DNA of 64,000 nucleotides from Oxalobacteraceae bacterium (GTDB lineage: Bacteria; Pseudomonadota; Gammaproteobacteria; Burkholderiales; Burkholderiaceae_D), in contig JAJTGD010000005.1 in assembly GCA_021299035.1 (NCBI GenBank), positions 1 to 64,000 of the forward strand, in the 5' to 3' direction. The notes beneath the pieces are model-generated. The model worked only from the letters and a program-made list of their open reading frames with translations, had not been told where the DNA came from and did no database searches. Within the stretch, counting starts at the first letter, position 1. Each line of letters begins with the position of its first letter. The position numbers were made by a program, and so were the translations under genes. Below, piece by piece: positions 10,100-57,858 of this stretch.

Positions 10100-10256
10100 G
10101 AAAATTCTTTTAAAAAAGCCAATGAAATCAATCGTTTTGGCCCGCGATTTGGACGCGTGAGTGAAATCATTACGCCCGCTGCCATTCCGGCAACATTGGA
10201 CTTTCTGGCCTGGCGCTTACAATTCGGCGCTTCGCCACGCCACCTCTAAAGCCGAC

Positions 10257-16549: not shown

Positions 16550-17422
16550 CTAGGCAAGCACTTCAGCAGGCTGGTTTTGCAGCAGCGCAAGTAGCTGCGC
16601 GATCTCTTCGCGCATCTTGCGACGATCGATGATCATGTCGATCGCACCTTTTTGCAGAATGAATTCGGAACGCTGGAAACCTTCCGGTAGTTTTTCACGC
16701 ACCGTATTCTCGATCACACGCGGACCGGCAAAGCCAATCAGCGCCTTTGGCTCGGCAATCACCACATCGCCCATGAACGCAAAGGAGGCAGAAACACCGC
16801 CCATGGTCGGGTCGGTCAGCACCGAAATAAACGGCAGCTTCTTCTCGGACAACTTGGTCAGCATGGCGGTGGTTTTTGCCATCTGCAGTAGCGACAGCAA
16901 GCCCTCTTGCATACGCGCGCCACCGGTCGCAGTGATGCAAATAAAGGGGACTTTTTGCTCAAGTGCTGTTTGCGCCGCACGTACGAAGCGCTCGCCAACC
17001 ACCGAGCCCATCGAGCCACCCATAAACTCGAACTCGAAACACGCCACCACCACCGGTACCGACAGGATGGCACCGCCCATCACGATCAGCGCATCGGTCT
17101 CACCGGTGGCATCAATCGCAATCTTCAGACGATCCGGGTATTTTTTACTGTCTTTGAACTTCAGGGTATCGACCGGTAGCACTTCCTGTCCGATTTCATA
17201 GCGTCCCTCATGATCCAGCAACGCATCCAGACGCTCACGCGCACTAATCCGCATGTGATGGTCGCACTTGGGGCATACATGCTGATTGGTCTCCAGATCG
17301 GTTCGGTACAACACCGATTCACAGGACGGGCACTTGACCCACAAGCCCTCAGGCACCGAGCGGCGGGTTTTGGGGTCAGAACGCTGAATTCGGGGTGGGA
17401 GGAGTTTCTCAAGCCAGCTCAT
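16550..17422 (-). CDS. accD: Acetyl-CoA carboxylase carboxyltransferase subunit beta
   Basis: Transfers the carboxyl group from biotin to acetyl-CoA, together with AccA, to make malonyl-CoA for fatty acid synthesis. The 290-aa protein has an N-terminal four-cysteine zinc ribbon (Cys31, Cys34, Cys50, Cys53). A crotonase-like carboxyltransferase domain follows, including [20 protein letters not shown] and [16 protein letters not shown]. Length and context are normal. Confidence 0.97.
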
Positions 17423-49189: not shown

Positions 49190-49486
49190 CTAGTCGCGAC
49201 GACCTGCTTCTTGCTTTAACAGGAAATGAGGAATGGGCGGCGGCGTCACCACTTGAGGGTCCAGCCTACGCGAGGCAAGTGCGGCCGGATCAGGCTCGAC
49301 AAGAATGCCTAGCTTGCGCGCATACAGTCGAATCATCCGACTCATTTCAGCAGCCGAGGCAATCTGCTCGACACCGGACTCAATCGCCAACACCTGCCGA
49401 ACACTCATGCCCGTCGATGACGCGATATCCTCGACTGCTAGCCCCAGTTGCCTGCGCTGCTTTGCAAGTTTCTCACCGATCTCCAT
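49190..49486 (-). CDS. Small HTH_25-type regulator
   Basis: 98 aa from ATG 49486 (GGAGAGGCT upstream). The N-terminal HTH has EIGEKLAKQRRQLGLAVEDIASSTGMSVRQVLAIESG, the same class as the RodZ N-terminus, but no membrane helix follows. A short Pro-rich tail ends the protein. A CCCTTGAGGG palindrome lies ~100 bp upstream. Confidence 0.75.
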   Translation of the reverse strand: MEIGEKLAKQRRQLGLAVEDIASSTGMSVRQVLAIESGVEQIASAAEMSRMIRLYARKLGILVEPDPAALASRRLDPQVVTPPPIPHFLLKQEAGRRD

Positions 49487-49587
49487 AGCCTCTCCGGTTG
49501 GAGGTTTTATTATTTTTGCAACGTTAGAAATCACACTTTGCGCATGATTCTATGCACATTATTGCAGCTGAGAAAGTATTTGGGGAC

Positions 49588-50455: not shown

Positions 50456-51604
50456 ATGAAAATGATGAAACGTTTAGTAATTTTATTGATTAGTCTGGCA
50501 ATGTTAGCTGCATGTGCCGAAAAAAGTATCTTGAATGCAGGATCGGGCGTTTTCATCATCGCGAAACCAAATATTGCCGGAATGATTGGGTATGCCTCAT
50601 CCGTGAGAGAAGAAATGGCCAAAGAAGCAGATCAGTTTGCAAAAAAACACGGCAAAGTCGCTCACGCAATTTCTTTCGAAGAGGTGCTGAATACCTCAGG
50701 GCGCTTTGGTACGATCGAATACAAATTTAAACTCGTTGATGAAGTTACACGAAAGGATCTGGAGAAAATTCCTGCTAACCAGACTAGAAGCATAGCGACT
50801 ACGGAATCAGTCAGTGAAGAATCGATTTTGAGGCCAGAGTTATTACCTCAATCGAACGAACAAGACGCCATCGCAATAATCATCGGCATCGAAAATTATA
50901 AAAGAGCCCCGAAAGCCGATTTTGCGAAAAATGATGCTAAATTGTTCTACCGTTACGCCGTCAGACGGCTTGGCATACCTGCGAACAGAATAAAATTGCT
51001 TCTCGATTCAGAGGCTGATCAGGCCGGAATAATCAAAGCCGTACGTAATTGGCTGCCACTACATATCAACGAAGGAAAAACAAAAGTTTTCTTGTTCTAC
51101 AGTGGCCATGGATTACCATCAAAAGATGGTAAAGATCTGTACTTTCTTCCGCATGAGACGGATATGGATCTAATCGAAGAAACTGGCATTAATCAAAAAA
51201 CCGTATTGAACTCTATAGATCGCTCAAAGCCTCAATCTGTGATTTTTTTTGTTGATAGTTGCTTTTCCGGGATATCAAAAAAAGGAGAAAGCTTGATTCC
51301 AGGCGCGCGACCAGTGACATTATTCTCCAATAGTTTTCATGCACCGGCAGGGTTTACAGCGCTGACTGCCTCCGGGCCACAACAAATATCCTCAGCGTCT
51401 CAAGAGCTACGCCATGGAATATTCAGTTATCACCTAATGAAAGGCATGGAGGGATATGCCGACCGCAATAACGATGGCGAGATTACATCAGGCGAACTCG
51501 CAGAGTATGTATCGATAAATGTAAAACGTGGCGCTATGGAAATAAATCGTCTGCAAGAGCCGCAGCTCATCGGGGATGAAAAAAGGGTAATCGTTGCGCG
51601 CTAA
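50456..51604 (+). CDS. Caspase-family (C14) lipoprotein with EF-hand
   Basis: 382 aa. A lipoprotein signal leads to the lipobox LAAC (Cys20). A ~110-residue N-terminal part of unknown type follows. The caspase domain (~135–335) has the catalytic dyad His218 in FLFYSGHGLPSKDG and Cys269 in VIFFVDSCFSG. A canonical EF-hand loop at 336–347 (DRNNDGEITSGE) suggests calcium dependence, as in metacaspases. Envelope-anchored caspases are rarer than cytoplasmic ones. Base composition is lower in GC than the flanks. The substrate is unknown. Confidence 0.85.
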   Translation: MKMMKRLVILLISLAMLAACAEKSILNAGSGVFIIAKPNIAGMIGYASSVREEMAKEADQFAKKHGKVAHAISFEEVLNTSGRFGTIEYKFKLVDEVTRKDLEKIPANQTRSIATTESVSEESILRPELLPQSNEQDAIAIIIGIENYKRAPKADFAKNDAKLFYRYAVRRLGIPANRIKLLLDSEADQAGIIKAVRNWLPLHINEGKTKVFLFYSGHGLPSKDGKDLYFLPHETDMDLIEETGINQKTVLNSIDRSKPQSVIFFVDSCFSGISKKGESLIPGARPVTLFSNSFHAPAGFTALTASGPQQISSASQELRHGIFSYHLMKGMEGYADRNNDGEITSGELAEYVSINVKRGAMEINRLQEPQLIGDEKRVIVAR

Positions 51605-51715
51605 GGTGCCTTGGGCCGCGCTGGCCGATAGCCATTGGCCAATGCTTGCAGAACGCTTGGGAGGCCTATTCGCTCGACACGCGCACGACTAGTTGCACCT
51701 ACTCAAACTTCAGAC

Positions 51716-52678
51716 ATGGTCGCTACGAACGCAAAAAATGAGCCCACCTCGGCTGCCTCGATAACCCGTTATCTCAGCGGCGCCGGAATTGCGCTTTGGG
51801 CGCTAGTGATGGCACTTGAACCCGATGTCGGATTAAGTGCCCCTTGGCCTTACATGGCTCTGTTCTGGGCGTTGCAAATCGGAATCGGACTGACAGTGTT
51901 GCAGTTCACGCTCTATCTTCTAAGTCAAGTCGATAAGGCAGCCCATTGGCCTCTTTGGACATTGATCTTGGGCAGCGGAGTGCTTGGCTCTGGCTTGCTA
52001 GCTCCGCTTTACTGGCTAATCGGCGAAGGACTGATGGTGCAAACCTTAGGGTTTGACGCAACAGATATCGATGATCTTGACGCCCAAATGACGTTTGGTC
52101 TCTCGGCCGTAATACACGAGTTCGGTGATATCGTTGGGCCAGTAACCGCAGCGTGGATCTTGGTCTCGTGGCCACGCCTTCAAGGTCTGCTCCCACCTTT
52201 GGTGAAGCGACATGTAGTGGTCGATGGTGAATCCATCAACAACACATCAGTTGAGGGTGATGCAATCCACCTCCCCGCGTGGCGCGACGCAATTCCCTAC
52301 GAGCTTGGCAACGACCTTATCGCAGTCAAATCCGAGCTACAGTACCTTCGAGTATTCACCACCCAAGGCTCTGCACTGGTTCTTGGCGCCTTGCGCGAAG
52401 TTGAAGATGGCGAGGGTGTAGCAGGGATAAGGGTGCACCGCTCTTGGTGGGTACATATCAACCATGTTCGCAGAATCAGAGAGCACGACGGCTCTGTAAT
52501 CTGCGAGTTAAGCGATGGGCGGCAAGTACCCGTTAGCCGTCGCCGGAAGTCAGATGTGATTTCATCCTTCGACAACTCTCCGCGTACTGATAAGGGTGTT
52601 GGTGAGCAAACTACGCCGCCCAACGGTGATGATCAGAACATCCGTCTAAGTCCCAAGCGCACCGATAAAGGATTATAG
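51716..52678 (+). CDS. Membrane-bound LytTR transcriptional regulator
   Basis: 320 aa from ATG 51716, which I prefer to the TTG at 51635; neither has a strong ribosome site. Four membrane helices lie in residues ~20–155 (ITRYLSGAGIALWALVMAL, AVIHEFGDIVGPVTAAWILV and two between). A cytoplasmic LytTR DNA-binding domain (~195–285) has NDLIAVKSELQYLRVFTTQG, RVHRSWWVHINHVRRI and ELSDGRQVPVSRRRKSDV. No receiver domain: the membrane part is the likely sensor. Its end overlaps the convergent OMP gene by 46 bp. Confidence 0.88.
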   Translation: MVATNAKNEPTSAASITRYLSGAGIALWALVMALEPDVGLSAPWPYMALFWALQIGIGLTVLQFTLYLLSQVDKAAHWPLWTLILGSGVLGSGLLAPLYWLIGEGLMVQTLGFDATDIDDLDAQMTFGLSAVIHEFGDIVGPVTAAWILVSWPRLQGLLPPLVKRHVVVDGESINNTSVEGDAIHLPAWRDAIPYELGNDLIAVKSELQYLRVFTTQGSALVLGALREVEDGEGVAGIRVHRSWWVHINHVRRIREHDGSVICELSDGRQVPVSRRRKSDVISSFDNSPRTDKGVGEQTTPPNGDDQNIRLSPKRTDKGL

Positions 52679-53307
52679 TCAGGGTGAGACAGACGCCCAG
52701 TCGCTCCCTCCTCAGCAGATAATTCGACACTACCTAGCCGCAAGTATCGTGCGTCTGCTACCAGCCGCCAGGTGCTATCAATAGGAATCTCAACACCTCC
52801 GATCAATTGCACGCCTACCTTCCCTCGGTCGGACCAAGCTCGCTCAACGCCGGCAGAGTTGATATCGAAATCGATCTCTTGGACCCAACCGATGCCAGCA
52901 CCTGCATAGGGCACCCATCCACCAGCTTGTCCTACAAAGCGTCGCAACCCATTCACAAACAAGATGTTGGAGGCGAAATCGCCTTCCGTCGCAAGTGCAG
53001 CGCCACCACCATTCAATGACTTCAGGTTGTGGCGACGCCAGTTCCATTCGAATTCAGCTGCCCAGCCATTGCCGTACCGGTAGCCGATATCACCGCCCAA
53101 ACCTAACCCGGAACCGAAGCTAGCTCTCAAGCCAGTTCCAAGTCCGGCATTTCCTATTTCATCAAATGTGGAAGAGCCGAGACGACTGGCTTCTACGTAG
53201 GCAGACGCATAAAAGCCCCTTGGTTCAGTTTGAGCAAGTAAGGGGGTAGATAAAGCGACGAGACAACCAAGCAGGACTGAGGTGAAATTGTTACAAAAAC
53301 GTTTCAT
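52633..53307 (-). CDS. Outer-membrane beta-barrel protein
   Basis: 224 aa from ATG 53307 (AAGGAGTTTGCTA upstream). The signal peptide ends near PLLAQTEPRG. Alternating amphipathic strands (GFYASAYVEASRLGSS, AEFEWNWRRHNLKSL, LVADARYLRLGSVELS) run to the C-terminal SVRLGLRRMF, an OmpA/OMP_b-brl-type barrel ending in Phe. Function unknown. It is convergent with the LytTR gene and shares 46 bp of 3' coding sequence with it. Confidence 0.85.
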   Translation of the reverse strand: MKRFCNNFTSVLLGCLVALSTPLLAQTEPRGFYASAYVEASRLGSSTFDEIGNAGLGTGLRASFGSGLGLGGDIGYRYGNGWAAEFEWNWRRHNLKSLNGGGAALATEGDFASNILFVNGLRRFVGQAGGWVPYAGAGIGWVQEIDFDINSAGVERAWSDRGKVGVQLIGGVEIPIDSTWRLVADARYLRLGSVELSAEEGATGRLSHPDYNPLSVRLGLRRMF

Positions 53308-53559
53308 TAGCAAACTCCTTGGTGAAGAAACCTAGCGGACACGGCTTCGAGAAAGGCCTGGATAAAATTCGCAAGCAGGCCCTCAAATTACTGAACATCA
53401 AGCGTGCTTGATATGATTTTTGAATTAGCGGGCACAGGAATGAACTAGCGGCAATCAAGTTCACGGAACCTGTAATAAATTTTTGTAAGTACCGACAGCC
53501 TACTAACCTCTTACTGAAGAACCGTAATTCAAGGCACGGCTATGGAAATCAGCAAATGA
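53308..53559. other. Intergenic, no gene seen
   Basis: Upstream region of the OMP gene. No repeat, RNA gene or credible reading frame recognised. Confidence 0.5.
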
Positions 53560-53569
53560 CAGACCTAGG

Positions 53570-53806
53570 CGGCCGAACTGGCCAAAGAAGGCTGACCTCA
53601 ATGCCCTGTCCCGCGAGCTACTCCAGTTAACAGTCGATACTGTGCTCAGCGCTGAATTGTTTGGCTGGGAGAAGCATGACGATAGCAAACCGGCAAAGGG
53701 TAATGCCTGCAATAGCTCCGTGAAGCGTTCCGTTGCTGGACGCTTGCTGTTGCTGATCAGTCCACTCGATCTAGCATGGTCGCCCAGCCCCAACCCTATT
53801 GGTTAA
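53570..53806 (+). pseudogene. IS256-family transposase N-terminal remnant
   Basis: In one plus-strand frame, residues such as ADLNALSRELLQLTVDTVLS and AELFGWEKHD, then a GNACNSS stretch, match the N-terminal region of IS256-type transposases (ADLNxLxRxLxKLTVExALNAEL…HLGxEK…). The frame has no proper start. It loses similarity after SVAG and stops at 53804–53806. The DDE catalytic domain and terminal inverted repeats are absent, so this is a dead fragment. Confidence 0.65.
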
Positions 53807-53879
53807 GCCAAGCAGACGCACTTTCGCGCACGGTGGCCTAAATCCACACAGTGAAAAAATCGGCTTAGCGAAAATATAA

Positions 53880-54015
53880 GATTGGCCTGCCCAGCACGAT
53901 TCGAACGTGCGACCTACGGCTTAGAAGCTGGCTTACTTTTTTGAAAACCTTGTGTTTTCAATGCCTGACAGTAGCCTGGAATCTGCCGTACCTCGCGCGG
54001 TGTGATCTGCGGCAC
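53880..54015 (-). repeat. tRNA-Arg 3'-half relic R1 with conserved coding tail
   Basis: 53880–53927 is identical to the 3' 48 bp of the tRNA-Arg(UCU) locus (57779–57826), from the anticodon loop through CCA. Identity ends inside the anticodon loop. The adjoining ~88 bp are shared with R2 and R3. On the minus strand they encode a tail such as PREVRQIPGYCQALKTQGFQ that stops within the tRNA segment. This fits an attachment site left by a tRNA-targeting integrase whose gene ended at att. Confidence 0.85.
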
Positions 54016-54141
54016 AGCATGGCATTGAGCGGAAGGCAGTGGCGAGAACGGCTGACTCTAATCTAGTGCCTGGAAGCAAATAGCGAGGAACAAAATAGAT
54101 CACGCAAACAGCGCCCCCATACATAGGCACCAGGCATTTTT

Positions 54142-54192
54142 TTGGGCACTGCCTCAAGGGCGTTTGCCCAAGTTAAAGATCAGTCGCATAAT
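54142..54192 (+). promoter_or_regulatory. hicBA promoter and candidate operator
   Basis: TTGCCC (54164–54169) and CATAAT (54187–54192) are 17 bp apart. The inverted repeat TTGGGCA (54142–54148) / TGCCCAA (54165–54171) covers the -35. AAGGAG precedes the hicB ATG. Confidence 0.5.
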
Positions 54193-54221
54193 GTAACGCA
54201 CCCGTTTGAAAGGAGCGTTTC

Positions 54222-54425
54222 ATGTTGCTTACTGCCGTATTAAGCCCTGCTGAAGAAGGCGGATACATCGCGCTGAATCCAGAAACTGGTACAACGAGCC
54301 AAGGCGAAACCTTGGATGAGGCGATCGCGAACCTGAAAGAGGCGACCTCGCTCTACTTGGAAGAATTTCCAGCGACATTCACCGCCCATCCTCTGATTAC
54401 CACCTTTGATTTAGCTCATGCCTAA
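54222..54425 (+). CDS. hicB: HicB-family antitoxin
   Basis: A 67-aa protein with the HicB partial RNase-H-like fold: LLTAVLSPAEEGGYIALNPE, then TTSQGETLDEAIANLKEATSLYLEE. No C-terminal DNA-binding domain is present, so it is a short form. It should neutralise HicA. The order antitoxin–toxin is reversed relative to E. coli hicAB. It overlaps hicA by 8 bp and lies between tRNA relics R1 and R2. Confidence 0.88.
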   Translation: MLLTAVLSPAEEGGYIALNPETGTTSQGETLDEAIANLKEATSLYLEEFPATFTAHPLITTFDLAHA

Positions 54426-54639
54426 ATTTCCGGGTCTATCAGGCAAGGAAATCATTCGCGCACTTGAAAAGTTAGGGTTTCGGGTTGCAAGACAATCAGG
54501 AAGTCATGTTTTGATGAAAAGGGGCGAAAAAGGATGCGTTGTGCCGAATCACAAAGAAGTCAAAGTGGGAACTGTAAACGGCGTCCTCAGGCAAGCTGAT
54601 ATCTCCCCGGAAGAATTTCAAAAAGCGTTATCAGATTGA
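54418..54639 (+). CDS. hicA: HicA-family toxin (mRNA interferase)
   Basis: A 73-aa dsRBD-like HicA fold: MPKFPGLSGKEIIRALEKLG, FRVARQSGSHVLMKRG with the catalytic His in GSH, and VVPNHKEVKVGTVNGVLRQADI. It would cleave mRNA when free. The pair appears intact in sequence. Confidence 0.9.
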   Translation: MPKFPGLSGKEIIRALEKLGFRVARQSGSHVLMKRGEKGCVVPNHKEVKVGTVNGVLRQADISPEEFQKALSD

Positions 54640-54717
54640 GACAGTCAATTTTTACGTCACGTTTACGGCACAGTAGACCGTAAATGGAAACGAGGTCCCG
54701 CTGTAAGTGCTTGATTT

Positions 54718-54855
54718 GATTGGCCTGCCCAGCACGAGTCGAACGTGCGACCTACGGCTTAGAAGCTGGCTTACTTTTTTGAAAACCTTGTATTTTCAAT
54801 GCCCTACAGCAGCCTCTAATCTGCCGTACCTCGTGCGGTGAGATTTGCGGCACGG
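54718..54855 (-). repeat. tRNA-Arg 3'-half relic R2 with conserved coding tail
   Basis: 54718–54765 matches the tRNA-Arg 3' 48 bp with one mismatch, in the T-arm region (gag for gat). The adjoining tail matches R1 with scattered changes that mostly keep the reading frame (PHEVRQIRGCCRALKIQGFQ), ending at the same stop. It bounds the hicBA module on the right. Confidence 0.85.
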
Positions 54856-54857
54856 CG

Positions 54858-55016
54858 TGGTTCCGAGCAGCAGTGATGAACTGGCTGGCGTTTTTCAATG
54901 CAAGGCGATCGCACTCGCGGCTTGGATAGGTCAGTCCGATGCAATTTGAGAAAAAACTGGCTTGCAGAACAGGTACGACGTTCTGCTTAAACGCATCGGT
55001 TATGGGATTCGTATAA
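54858..55016 (+). pseudogene. IS3-family transposase (OrfB) C-terminal remnant
   Basis: A plus-strand frame reads VMNWLAFFNARRSHSRLG, then a TAG stop, then VSPMQFEKKLACRTG. This is the usual IS3 OrfB end (…DWLxFYNxRRxHSxLGYxSPMxFE…). The Tyr codon that normally follows LG is TAG here. Nothing upstream of ~54858 is transposase-like, since the R2 tail begins there, so only the last ~50 codons survive. Confidence 0.75.
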
Positions 55017-55089
55017 CGAGGGTAAGGTCAGTATCCAGCCAAACATCCAAAAACTTTTGTCAAGAGATGAAGATCGATTTAACTACTGA

Positions 55090-55830
55090 TCATCCTTTAC
55101 ACTCGATTTTGGCGTGGGCGGTACGCATTGGCTCCTTTGTACACTCACACCGAAAACCAAGCTTCACCATCTGTGTATTGGTTGCGTGAGGCGGCATTAC
55201 TTCACCGTTCACTATTAAAACCGTTCGATCATCCATACCGCAAACAGGCGCGTCGGGGCCAGCACAGAAGAACGCCTTATCGTGAGCAATCCCGCTTACT
55301 ATGCAAGGTCCATCCGGATTTACAGGCGCCCCCTTATTTTGTGCCGACATCCGATTTTTTTCAGACTCCGCCTTTGTTGCTAGTTCGCTTTCTTTGTTGA
55401 TTTTTTCCAGTAACAGATCAGACTCTACTTTTAACCGCCCGAGATCGGCATCCTCGGGGAAATATTGTAAATATTTCTGCACTACACTGATTGCATCATT
55501 AGGTTGTTTCCCATCAATCGAAGCTTTTACCTCTTTCAGGATTGCTTCCTTATTGTTCACATAATAATTTTTATCTTTCTCCGATTGCGCTGACGATATG
55601 GAGAGGATACTTGTTATGAAAAACACTGACAGAAGACCATACTTGAAAAATTGATTTCTGAAAATCGCCGTTTTTTCGATGAGTTTTCTATGCACTGCGG
55701 GCAAAACGATCAGAGCTCCCAACCATGCAGCTCCTGCACCCAAAGCCGAGCCAGCGGTAATACCCGCAAAACCCGTGATGAGAAATGCAAAGAAAACACT
55801 CCATAAAAGTAGTTTTTTAACGAAATGCAT
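55090..55830 (-). CDS. Membrane protein with Cys-rich C-terminus, unknown
   Basis: 246 aa. Three hydrophobic segments in residues ~5–90 (LLLWSVFFAFLITGFAGITA, an AAWLGALIVLPAV region, FFKYGLLSVFFITSILSIS) precede a charged, coiled or TPR-like stretch (ASIDGKQPNDAISVVQKYLQ). The C-terminal ~75 residues have six cysteines (PCIVSGI, FFCAGPDAPVCGM, FRCECTKEP, IECKG). No family recognised. AT-rich, and lies between relics R2 and R3 as module cargo. Confidence 0.65.
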   Translation of the reverse strand: MHFVKKLLLWSVFFAFLITGFAGITAGSALGAGAAWLGALIVLPAVHRKLIEKTAIFRNQFFKYGLLSVFFITSILSISSAQSEKDKNYYVNNKEAILKEVKASIDGKQPNDAISVVQKYLQYFPEDADLGRLKVESDLLLEKINKESELATKAESEKNRMSAQNKGAPVNPDGPCIVSGIAHDKAFFCAGPDAPVCGMDDRTVLIVNGEVMPPHATNTQMVKLGFRCECTKEPMRTAHAKIECKG

Positions 55831-55832
55831 TA

Positions 55833-56030
55833 TCAGATATCCTTTAATTCAAGTGTTCCATTCCCAGTAAAGCGCATACTTGCGATACCTAAGGACGGAG
55901 ACTTCCAGACATCATGAATATCATGGAAGCGTGGCTGCGAAAAGCCAATATTGATGATAAATCTTGGTTTTCGTATGATTCTTCGGAAGAAAAACGCAAT
56001 TCCAATCCAAGCAAAACAATGACTACCCAA
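55833..56030 (-). CDS. Possible small ORF upstream of the Cys-rich protein
   Basis: A 65-codon frame (TTG start, no clear ribosome site) ends with SPSLGIASMRFTGNGTLELK and stops 2 bp before the next gene's ATG, a spacing that suggests coupling. The C-terminal half looks protein-like and the N-terminal half less so. It could be a remnant or a small gene with a later start. Confidence 0.25.
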   Translation of the reverse strand: MGSHCFAWIGIAFFFRRIIRKPRFIINIGFSQPRFHDIHDVWKSPSLGIASMRFTGNGTLELKDI

Positions 56031-56048
56031 TCAAATTGTTGCGGGATG

Positions 56049-56750
56049 TCATGAGCCGCAAGCCGTAATCAAGATTTTCATCATTGCTGTGTCATTCTCA
56101 CGTTTTGCTTTGTTGTATTGAAACACCCCATTCGAGTAACCCCGCATGAGATATCTCAGCCCCTCGGGTAGCTGATTGATACATTGCTCAGTCGTTCCAC
56201 CTTGCTTAACGCAAGCTTGCACCTTGGCATTCCCATCCACCGACGCCTCAGCAGCCTTCGTATATTTTTTGATAAATGCTTGGTTTGCATCCGGCAAAGA
56301 CCCTGAATGTTCCAAACGCATGTAGTTGACTACAAGGCACCGACCTATATGGGCTAACTCTTCACCAGCTTTTTGATTTTCGTTTTCTTTTTGAGCTTTC
56401 AGTGCGTTCTCTTGCTCGGCCTTACCGCCCGCCCGTCCAAAACTAAGAATTTGGCTATTCAACTCATCGAGCCTCTCACGGTATGCAGCTTTTAAACATG
56501 CACTATCGCTGCATTTTTTTAGCTCGGCCAACCATGCTCGTTGTTCGGCCTTGAGACCTGGAATATGCTTACCTTCGTTATAGATACCGGCAAGCTGCTC
56601 ATCCAACTTCCCTAACTCCGAATCTGAACAAATCATTTTCTCGGTTTGCGTGGTCGCTTTCGAGCAATTGAAAGACGCCGCATCGGCGGTAGTTTGAGCA
56701 GAAGAAAATGAAATCACCAGCAACGCTAGAAAGAGATTTTTTGTGTTCAT
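56049..56750 (-). CDS. LprI/DUF1311-type secreted protein
   Basis: 233 aa with a signal peptide ending near QTTADA-ASF. The N-terminal domain (residues ~26–95) follows the LprI/DUF1311 pattern: FNCSKATTQTEKMICSDSEL, GKLDEQLAGIYNE, QRAWLAELKKC, SACLKAAYRERLDEL. Paired cysteines are visible. LprI of Mycobacterium inhibits lysozyme. That function is only a possibility here. The C-terminal ~110 residues, with three more Cys, are unrecognised. Cargo of the R2–R3 module. Confidence 0.8.
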   Translation of the reverse strand: MNTKNLFLALLVISFSSAQTTADAASFNCSKATTQTEKMICSDSELGKLDEQLAGIYNEGKHIPGLKAEQRAWLAELKKCSDSACLKAAYRERLDELNSQILSFGRAGGKAEQENALKAQKENENQKAGEELAHIGRCLVVNYMRLEHSGSLPDANQAFIKKYTKAAEASVDGNAKVQACVKQGGTTEQCINQLPEGLRYLMRGYSNGVFQYNKAKRENDTAMMKILITACGS

Positions 56751-56897
56751 CGCATTAAGTTAATTACTTTAAATATATCGTTATGAGTCTAGCACATGGC
56801 TTGACATGACCGGCCAATTCAAAAGTACAAATCGGCCCCCACACCTTCACCGCCACAATCAGCACAGTAAACCTGGGGTAACAGAAATACATCATGG
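56751..56897. other. Intergenic, no gene seen
   Basis: AT-rich upstream region of the LprI-like gene. No repeat or RNA gene recognised before relic R3. Confidence 0.5.
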
Positions 56898-57030
56898 GGT
56901 TGTCCTGCATGATTCGAACGTGCGAAACGCGGCTTAGAAGCTATGATTTCTTTTTGAAAACCTTTGCTATTCAATGCCTGACAGTAGCCAGGAATCTGCC
57001 GTACCTCGTGTGGTGTGATCTGCGGAACCA
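56898..57030 (-). repeat. tRNA-Arg 3'-half relic R3 (most decayed) with coding tail
   Basis: 56898–56940 still shows the T-arm and anticodon-loop parts of tRNA-Arg but with several changes and small losses. The tail encodes PHEVRQIPGYCQALNSKGFQ in the same frame as R1 and R2. The R1/R3 similarity also reaches about nine codons further upstream (AQ….VPQI). The greater decay suggests the oldest integration. Confidence 0.75.
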
Positions 57031-57049
57031 AGCGGCGTTGAGCGGTCAG

Positions 57050-57088
57050 TTGACACCCGCAGAAGCGGTATATATCATGAGATATACC
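57050..57088 (+). promoter_or_regulatory. vapBC promoter with overlapping operator
   Basis: TTGACA (57050–57055) and TATCAT (57073–57078) are exactly 17 bp apart, a near-consensus promoter. A near-perfect palindrome, GGTATAT…ATATACC (57067–57088), covers the -10. VapB binding there would shut the promoter, the usual toxin–antitoxin autoregulation. GGGGAGG precedes the vapB ATG. Confidence 0.75.
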
Positions 57089-57108
57089 ATCCATTTCGGG
57101 GAGGCGCC

Positions 57109-57360
57109 ATGTACCAAACTGCCAAGATTTTCACCACCGGCCGCAGCCAAGCGGTTCGCCTGCCACTGGAGTTTCGATTTGACGTCACCGAAGTCTACAT
57201 CCGCCACGACCCCGTCACGGGAGATGTAGTGCTATCCCGCAAGCCAACCGATTGGCAAGGTTTAATCGACGTTGTGAAACTCAACGCCGAGGAAGATTTG
57301 CTCATTGAGCGCCGCCAAACGAACACTCGTCGCGACCCCTTTGAGAACGACCAAAAATGA
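57109..57360 (+). CDS. vapB: VapB-type antitoxin (AbrB/MazE fold)
   Basis: 83 aa. The N-terminal swapped-hairpin DNA-binding fold is [20 protein letters not shown], then [20 protein letters not shown]. The C-terminal tail should cover the VapC active site. It overlaps vapC by 4 bp (ATGA). Lies between relic R3 and the intact tRNA-Arg. Confidence 0.92.
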
Positions 57361-57761
57361 GCAAGCACTACCTGCTCGATACCAACATCATCAGCCACAT
57401 CATGCAGGGCCGCAATAATGATTTACTGAATCGGTTAACAAATGTCGCCGTTGGTCAGGTCGCAATGTCCAGCGTGACCTTGGCTGAGCTGGAATACGGA
57501 TTACACCGCAGAGGCCAACCCCCTCGCCTAAGAAATGCGCTCACCCAAGTTCTATTGCGAATTGATGTACTGCCTTGGGATGAACAAGCCGCCGTCTGTT
57601 ATGGTGAGCTATGCAACAACCTAGAATCTAAAGGGATCAACTTGAGTGATTTCGACATGATGATTGCAGCCCATGCAGCGTCAGTTAAATCAACGCTAGT
57701 CAGTCGTGACAAAGCTTTTTCTCAAATACCCACCGACTGTTTGAGTCTAGAGATTTGGTAG
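57357..57761 (+). CDS. vapC: VapC-type PIN-domain toxin
   Basis: 134 aa. The acidic PIN residues are all present: [12 protein letters not shown] (Asp8), TLAELEYGL (Glu), [14 protein letters not shown] (Asp pair) and [12 protein letters not shown]. VapC enzymes are Mg2+-dependent RNases, often cutting initiator tRNA or rRNA; the target here is unknown. The gene ends 20 bp before the tRNA-Arg 3' end. Confidence 0.95.
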
Positions 57762-57781
57762 CGAAAGTAAAACCAAAGGAT

Positions 57782-57858
57782 TGGCCTGCCCAGCACGATT
57801 CGAACGTGCGACCTACGGCTTAGAAGGCCGTTGCTCTATCCAGCTGAGCTATGGGCAG
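57782..57858 (-). tRNA. tRNA-Arg (anticodon UCU)
   Basis: A complete cloverleaf of 77 nt with encoded CCA. The acceptor is CTGCCCA/TGGGCAG, the anticodon stem ACGGC/GCCGT and the loop CTTCTAA, giving anticodon TCT. The T stem is GCACG/CGTGC with TTCGAAT. Its 3' half is the source of relics R1–R3, so it is the integration target. Confidence 0.97.

Follow-up and report, generated by a model that had tools for sequence, protein, structure and literature searches.

Integrative elements that decay at a shared insertion site can leave arrays of modules without integrases, and several systems of this kind have been described. Integrative and conjugative elements and integrative and mobilizable elements decay to cis-mobilizable elements (CIMEs) that keep attL and attR, and these accrete in tandem (PMC5704250). 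The Dehalococcoides islands at ssrA include 15 without an integration module, which were read as possible cis-mobilizable elements (PMC3146451), and the additive island fGI-2 of Methylopumilus lies at tRNA-Lys, with variable islands of 330 bp to 42 kb (PMC10872708). Components of 2 and 3 kb stand in tandem with larger ones at the fis gene (PMC10111431), and the Islander table holds 4 tandems of 3 or more islands (PMC4383910). Here we describe a tRNA-Arg(UCU) locus in a 64,000-nucleotide stretch of DNA (the window) from an uncultured freshwater genus of the Oxalobacteraceae; the window's genome, G000, is 94.9% complete. We consider it quite probable that the region from ~49.6 kb to 57782 is a hotspot at this tRNA gene, filled by tandem-inserted, decayed, integrase-less CIME-like elements, of which at least one was probably of phage type.

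The locus adds a clear new case to a class of genomic hotspot already known, and we found no description of it among the papers that our literature search listed. As in CIME accretion, integrase-less modules flanked by attachment (att) sites stand in tandem at the 3' end of one gene. The available account of accretion concerns conjugative and mobilizable elements, whereas one end type in the window matches a phage integrase end and the modules measure ~0.8-2.2 kb; no transfer gene was recognised by Pfam among 10 window proteins, and the likeness is one of sequence anatomy (PMC5704250). The Dehalococcoides islands share the many direct repeats of an RNA gene 3' end downstream of the gene, but differ in their tmRNA target, serine recombinase and reductive dehalogenase cargo (PMC3146451). 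Methylopumilus fGI-2 also belongs to freshwater bacteria and has recurring tRNA 3' ends (the last 20 nt), but its repeats are 20 nt long, its proteins are mostly of unknown function, and no long conserved arm is reported in the text at hand (PMC10872708). Islander islands likewise have a displaced 3' tRNA fragment in the correct orientation and include an anticodon-loop crossover class (PMC4383910). An Islander tandem array requires an integrase for each island, however, and because none was found in the window modules, a tool of this kind would be expected to miss the locus. The locus matters in that two kinds of element end, each tied to a different integrase, meet at one anticodon-loop site in an uncultured freshwater genus and small toxin-antitoxin modules are left behind, and its conserved arms could serve as a marker for tracking whether modules without an integrase are still mobile.

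Repeat units and module ends

The array consists of three partial copies (R1 to R3) of the tRNA-Arg 3' half, each joined to an arm. Mismatches of the cores are counted over 45 tRNA bases, from the CCA end to the anticodon loop. The handles G001 to G020 denote related genomes of the genus, all multi-contig drafts, C their contigs and L individual loci.

57782..57858, minus strand: intact tRNA-Arg(UCU), the attachment gene (ARAGORN, TCT; Rfam tRNA 68.2 bits)
53880..53927, minus strand: R1 core, relic of the tRNA 3' half, 0/45 bases differing
53928..54052, plus strand: R1 arm (P arm), with inverted repeat TTGAAAA-N7-TTTTCAA and direct repeat ATCTGCCG/ATCTGCGG; 119/125 identical to a G006 arm
54718..54765, minus strand: R2 core, 1/45 differing
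54766..54873, plus strand: R2 arm
56893..56940, minus strand: R3 core, decayed, 10/45 differing
56941..57048, plus strand: R3 arm

R1, R2 and R3 are direct repeats in a single orientation, that of the intact tRNA-Arg, which is followed by tRNA-Pro. Their starts (53880, 54718 and 56893) are spaced by 838 bp (R1 to R2) and 2175 bp (R2 to R3), with 886 bp from R3 to the tRNA copy. The unit comprises 156 bp, namely 48 bp of the tRNA 3' half, from three bases past CCA to the anticodon loop, and a ~108-bp arm that is absent from the intact tRNA gene. Over these 156 bp R1 is 88% identical to R2 and 78% to R3. A 30-base pattern that spans core and arm has 3 matches in the window and 0 in 100 shuffles. 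The original prediction of three same-orientation 3'-half copies ahead of the intact gene is thereby confirmed, with R3 starting at 56893, as is the identity break in the anticodon loop, which lies at the 5' edge of the loop in 8/8 aligned units. The unit length of 136 bp given there is corrected to 156 bp or more, and the smooth age gradient that it proposed is not supported: the worst relic, R3, is nearest the tRNA and the two farther ones are near-perfect. An RNA gene within the arm was considered and dropped, Rfam at gathering scores returning only two tRNAs.

The aligned arms (n=8) have in common the inverted repeat TTGAAAA-N7-TTTTCAA, which shows partial changes in R3, G020 and G001, and a direct repeat, ATCTGCSG, with changes in some copies; these repeats may be integrase-binding sites. 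Four of the eight relics (R1, G006 C48, G016 and G020) have 0/45 mismatches to the tRNA of their own genome, including a C/T position that varies between hosts.

Sequences to the left of the cores fall into two conserved types, A (~170 bp) and B (~80 bp), which form the P' side of the modules. The window copies are included in the end-type profiles, and their nhmmer scores are therefore not independent:

53713..53885, plus strand: type A module end, left of R1 (152 bits)
54642..54719, plus strand: type B module end, left of R2 (80 bits), with a motif of phage integrase gene 3' ends
56833..56898, plus strand: type A module end, partial and decayed, left of R3 (28.6 bits)

Beyond the copy at R1, type A ends occur left of the tRNA in G006, G016 and G020 and in G006 C81, and shortened ones left of window R3 and of the G001 relic. 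Type B ends stand left of window R2 (after HicBA), of the G006 relic and of the G020 C25 relic. A further type B match, over 37 bp only, lies left of the G001 tRNA after VapBC. It is weak evidence, since the tRNA flank of G003, a site without any recognised element, also has a resemblance to the last ~20 bp of the type B sequence. Junctions of att type are present at both ends of the HicBA and LprI modules, as arms and P' ends.

Loci in related genomes

The unit matched 12 of 21 genus genomes at E 0.001, with core and arm in 5 and the tRNA part only in 7. The eight core-plus-arm units comprise three in G000, two in G006 and one each in G016, G020 and G001; this count leaves out a core without arm (L036, on G006 C81) and a decayed second relic in L035 (E 0.0034). 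A search of one genome per species with the exact 30-base pattern, from which the window's own genome was perhaps excluded, returned 5 contigs, apparently those of G006 (two), G020, G001 and G016. The arm pattern was found in 1 viral contig, a later-arm pattern, which would also miss G016-like arms, in 0 contigs, and the arm in 0 plasmid records; the 9 phage records returned matched the tRNA core only.

The tRNA was located in 12 genus genomes, and at least 1 kb of its 3' flank is assembled in 8. Toxin-antitoxin genes or their remnants occupy this flank in 5/8 (G000, G001, G006, G009 and G019); in G003, G014 and G016 no cluster match to toxin-antitoxin genes was obtained, the remaining genes having been only partly Pfam-scanned. 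The order of genes differs as follows. G006 has an ankyrin protein, a decayed HicBA, a type B end, a relic, a truncated integrase, a 274-aa (amino acid) protein and a type A end. G016 has a relic, genes for a LytTR-domain protein and an outer-membrane protein (LytTR/OMP), an integrase remnant, an M23 peptidase and a type A end, and G001 has a HicB remnant, a 648-aa cyclase-domain protein, a shortened type A end, a relic and VapBC. At the tRNA flank of G019 there are a Phd/ParE pair and a HAD protein, and G009 has VapBC only, without relic or arm. The site is nearly empty in G014, with the tRNA ~60 bp from a backbone response-regulator gene and the helix-turn-helix (HTH) gene that borders the window array not seen adjoining. 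One module swap is apparent, the order HicA, type B end and R2 being common to G006 and the window and then followed by integrase/274-aa in G006 versus 246-aa/LprI in the window. The differing content at the same tRNA supports, between species, the expected variation of modules between genomes. No additional relic came to light in extended flanks of G006, G019 and G020, and the G020 contig ends 21 bp past its unit.

Several contigs end shortly beyond the tRNA-Arg 3' end (G002:C115 after 14 bp, G020:C42 after 196 bp, G004:C196 after 431 bp), which looks like assemblies breaking at a variable or repeated junction. In L045 (G003:C12) tRNA-Arg and tRNA-Pro, as a pair, have the opposite orientation with respect to glmM-folP-ftsH.

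Lateral movement

The R1 arm, taken without its tRNA part, is 95% identical (119/125) to the G006 arm that lies right of HicBA, which matches the window's R2 arm at 79/88. The flanking glmM-folP-ftsH DNA of the two genomes is 79.3% identical over aligned bases, and in 211 windows of 173 columns across flanking core DNA, with gaps counted as differences, the mean identity is 75% and the maximum 87.9%. Because the arm so exceeds the flanking core genes, we consider that it probably moved sideways. VapBC gives no clear transfer signal, because its identity between the window and G001 (580/632) or G009 (606/653) compares with the maximum of 92.5% reached by windows of the backbone, which is 83.5% (G001) and 82.2% (G009) identical overall.

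A tRNA-Arg core on G006:C81 (L036, 6059-6103) carries two paired T-stem changes and has no adjoining tRNA 5' half or arm. The combination is absent from the 12 tRNAs compared, one pair occurring in G014 (pairing read by eye), and the same contig encodes the N-terminal part of an integrase that shares 71% identity with the type A integrase P0001. This core was possibly brought from a donor with a different tRNA-Arg, as part of a foreign element at a secondary site.

Integrases linked to the two end types

Type B ends are linked to an integrase by an IMG/VR phage contig of 17.8 kb (L093), on which an intact integrase of 347 aa (PHROG integrase E 1e-58; Pfam Phage_integrase E 3e-32) occurs together with genes for phage replication. 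The end of the integrase gene adjoins a type B end (64 bits) and a tRNA-Arg core with the first 23 bases of the arm (74 bits together); the unit thus has a relative that neighbours a complete integrase gene, the association for which the original prediction had proposed a search. The type B modules, which have this att end in common with the phage, would be remnants of a temperate phage. Nine viral contigs, L093 among them, contain the ACRTCACRTTTAYGKCACAGT motif that is seen in type B ends. Five of these (L118, L120, L123, L124 and L125) have near-identical ends, and there the motif forms the 3' terminus of an integrase gene whose product ends HVTFTSQ; in L119 and L122 it lies near what by eye resembles the 3' end of another tRNA, and in L121 its placement was not assigned. 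One reading frame of the window's type B motif gives NFYVTFTAQ followed by a stop. A search for relatives of the L093 polymerase found only L093 itself, and at E 0.05 neither of two viral relatives of the phage integrase (L096 and L097; 54%) matched the arm, the core or either end type.

Type A ends are tied to a different integrase. At the type A end of G006 a 331-aa integrase-like frame (Pfam Phage_int_M E 0.0017, below cut-off; PHROG integrase E 3e-7) stops before the C-terminal part seen in a 469-aa relative; G016 has an N-terminal integrase remnant with stops at its type A end, and G006 C81 an N-terminal piece at the contig end. Genus genomes also contain relatives that are 28-32% identical, have open frames of 462-475 aa and lie next to tRNA-Lys (2 loci) or tRNA-Asn (3 loci); in viral contigs no relative of the type A integrase was confirmed. 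Upstream of the integrase remnant there are extra partial type A copies, at 10100-10188 and 11343-11517 of L034 (reverse-complement coordinates) and likewise at 17358-17420 and 18512-18671 of L037. The resulting direct repeats of the type A end flank the 274-aa gene in G006 and the M23 peptidase in G016, and perhaps represent a second route of cargo acquisition. On G006:C52 (L078, L079, L060) two integrases with open frames of 474 and 475 aa lie ~34 kb apart, one beside an intact tRNA-Asn and the other beside a tRNA-Asn-like 3' half; these are probably tandem islands.

No integrase was found in the four window modules by open reading frames, Pfam, end profiles or PF00589, and the window's genome has no match to the type A integrase P0001 (E 1e-6) or the phage integrase P0004 (E 1e-20). 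Its three PF00589 genes are all on other contigs. Two are Xer-like by reading of the sequence, and the third encodes a 403-aa integrase ~60 bp from tRNA-Ser; this gene (L133, G000:C1, 729-2094) stands beside tRNA-Ser(GGA), where another tRNA island may exist. The integron integrase model TIGR02249 gave 4 matches in two genes of the genome, none above the cut-off (best 84.5/265 bits), and a similar sub-threshold signal appears in 14/14 control genomes.

Origin of the array

We propose that integrative elements inserted in tandem at the anticodon-loop site and afterwards decayed. Each insertion would leave two marks, a P' end on one side and, on the opposite side, an att junction made of the tRNA 3' half and the element arm. 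The integrases would then have been lost or truncated, with the att ends kept together with the cargo: HicBA, VapBC, the LprI-like/246-aa pair and LytTR/OMP. That the elements once had integrases is suggested by the integrase remnants in two relatives and the integrase-end motif in type B ends. The relic-plus-arm units, the end types and the L093 integrase support the original prediction that elements integrated at a single tRNA more than once, site-specifically and by anticodon-loop crossover. A cognate integrase brought in by a newly arriving phage or island might excise or extend modules, which may still be moving, and the toxin-antitoxin cargo would select against loss of the segment.

Several observations weigh against this account. 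The decay of the relics runs opposite to simple stacking, with R3, nearest the tRNA, the most decayed, and VapBC could predate the repeat, because G009 has it without relic or arm. Both the decay order and the relic-free G009 argue that elements were not simply stacked one by one at the tRNA alone; later insertion into an older att copy, gene conversion or deletion may have contributed. No P' sequence was recognised at the tRNA-side end of the window's VapBC, and the arm profile found no relic at the left border of its LytTR/OMP module. L093 ends 23 bases into the arm, which could belong to a neighbouring module, and its tail is out of frame with its integrase, so that ACRTCACRTTTAYGKCACAGT may be a binding motif and not a gene remnant. 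The 469-aa type A relative matches the N-terminal and central integrase domains in Pfam and not the catalytic one; for lack of that match, the type A family is called tyrosine recombinases from domain matches and motif reading. G016 (L037, G016:C49) is 88% identical to the window in its left flank and 99% identical to G002 on the tRNA side. It should be used with care, because flanks that resemble different clades may reflect recombination or a chimeric bin, and the genome may be chimeric.

Among other explanations, it is rather unlikely that the modules are minimal non-autonomous cassettes (att arms and a toxin-antitoxin pair, <1 kb) moved in trans by a phage integrase, like tRNA-targeted satellites. 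The HicBA and VapBC modules, just 838 and 886 bp from unit to unit, would suit such cassettes, as would HicB or HicBA directly left of the relic at window R2, G006 C48 and G006 C21, the R1 arm being too similar between species for the core-gene distance, and the toxin-antitoxin genes or remnants beside the tRNA in five of the eight genomes with at least 1 kb of 3' flank. Decay, on the other hand, predicts the apparent integrase 3' end in type B ends and the integrase remnants in G006 and G016; several copies are themselves decayed, and neither an excised form, for which no aimed search was made, nor an identical cassette at an unlinked site was found. The resemblance to a cassette array in the original prediction is thus not supported in the sense of a true cassette system moving integrase-less units as such, the integrase remnants pointing to decayed elements. 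There is only a small chance that HicBA and VapBC are living, recombinase-less, sub-kilobase tRNA-anticodon cassettes on which arm-sharing phage or island integrases act in trans, a counterpart to integron or dif-module cassettes.

Homologous recombination could instead have done most of the work, one or two ancient insertions being shuffled and duplicated via the 156-bp repeats. The greater identity of R1 to R2 than to R3 and the closeness of the G006 arm right of HicBA to window R1 rather than R2 agree with this, and the unusual order of decay could result from gene conversion. Unrelated modules with two P' end types would not, however, be expected from duplication of a single insertion, and single units have different neighbours in G001, G016 and G020, so that we regard this course of events as very improbable. 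A single old tandem duplication of a tRNA fragment, with no site-specific integration, would account for window copies that all lie in one orientation beside their source gene. We give it almost no credence: the arm is absent from the tRNA, the break falls at the anticodon loop in 8/8 units, a relative stands beside an integrase and the arrangement varies, and the unrelated modules, the two end types and the recurrence of units with other neighbours rule it out for practical purposes.

Cargo genes and extent of the array

The variable region is bounded by the backbone HTH gene, with homology to G016 running to 49617, and by the tRNA. Its recognised genes are:

49190..49534, minus strand: backbone HTH gene, left border of the variable region (Pfam; G016 homology to 49617)
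51635..52678, plus strand: LytTR-domain protein (Pfam); in G016, with the next gene, bounded by relic and tRNA
52633..53313, minus strand: outer-membrane beta-barrel protein, in the same module as the LytTR gene (Pfam; synteny with G016)
54222..54425, plus strand: HicB-like antitoxin, 67 aa (Pfam HicB_lk_antitox E 9e-4, below cut-off; PHROG HicB-like E 4e-6)
54418..54639, plus strand: HicA toxin, 73 aa (Pfam HicA_toxin E 7e-19)
54876..54983, plus strand: possible IS3-type transposase tail, broken (rve_2 E 8e-4, below Pfam cut-off; 36-aa peptide)
55090..55830, minus strand: 246-aa protein, no family found
56049..56750, minus strand: LprI-like protein, 233 aa (Pfam LprI E 1.4e-5)
57109..57360, plus strand: VapB antitoxin, 83 aa (NCBIfam VapB model E 1e-17, below cut-off)
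57357..57761, plus strand: VapC toxin (PIN), 134 aa (Pfam PIN E 7e-19; NCBIfam VapC E 1.6e-29, below cut-off)

The array extends farther left than the original prediction had it, since the conserved opposite module ends bring in the LytTR/OMP genes: a type A end and then R1 come after these two genes, and the G016 pair, 84% identical to that of the window, has a relic with a perfect core and an arm on its left. A decayed relic left of the window's LytTR module was considered and dropped, the arm profile giving none.

HicBA, LprI-like and VapBC cargo, which the original prediction had placed between the repeats, is found there, although the HicB match is weak and VapB falls below the NCBIfam cut-off. 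The IS3 remnant that it named has weak backing, namely the sub-threshold rve_2 match of the 36-aa peptide. The PHROG families matched by HicB (E 4e-6) and HicA (E 1e-12) are classed as moron genes, and beside these matches PHROG recognised no phage structural or replication gene. The 246-aa protein has no match in Pfam, NCBIfam, PADLOC or PHROG, and an IS256-like reading of 53591-53720 was dropped, there being no Pfam match.

PADLOC, applied to 10 proteins, gave a caspase model for the gene at 50456 and a weak PycC match for the G001 cyclase; the ankyrin protein of G006 matched models of ankyrin type, PDC-M72A among them. The caspase-domain (Peptidase_C14) gene at 50456-51604 and a TRL-like gene occupy the place of the leftmost tRNA relic of G016, and sequence related to window 50456-51604 is present in G006 (L034) at 63% DNA identity.

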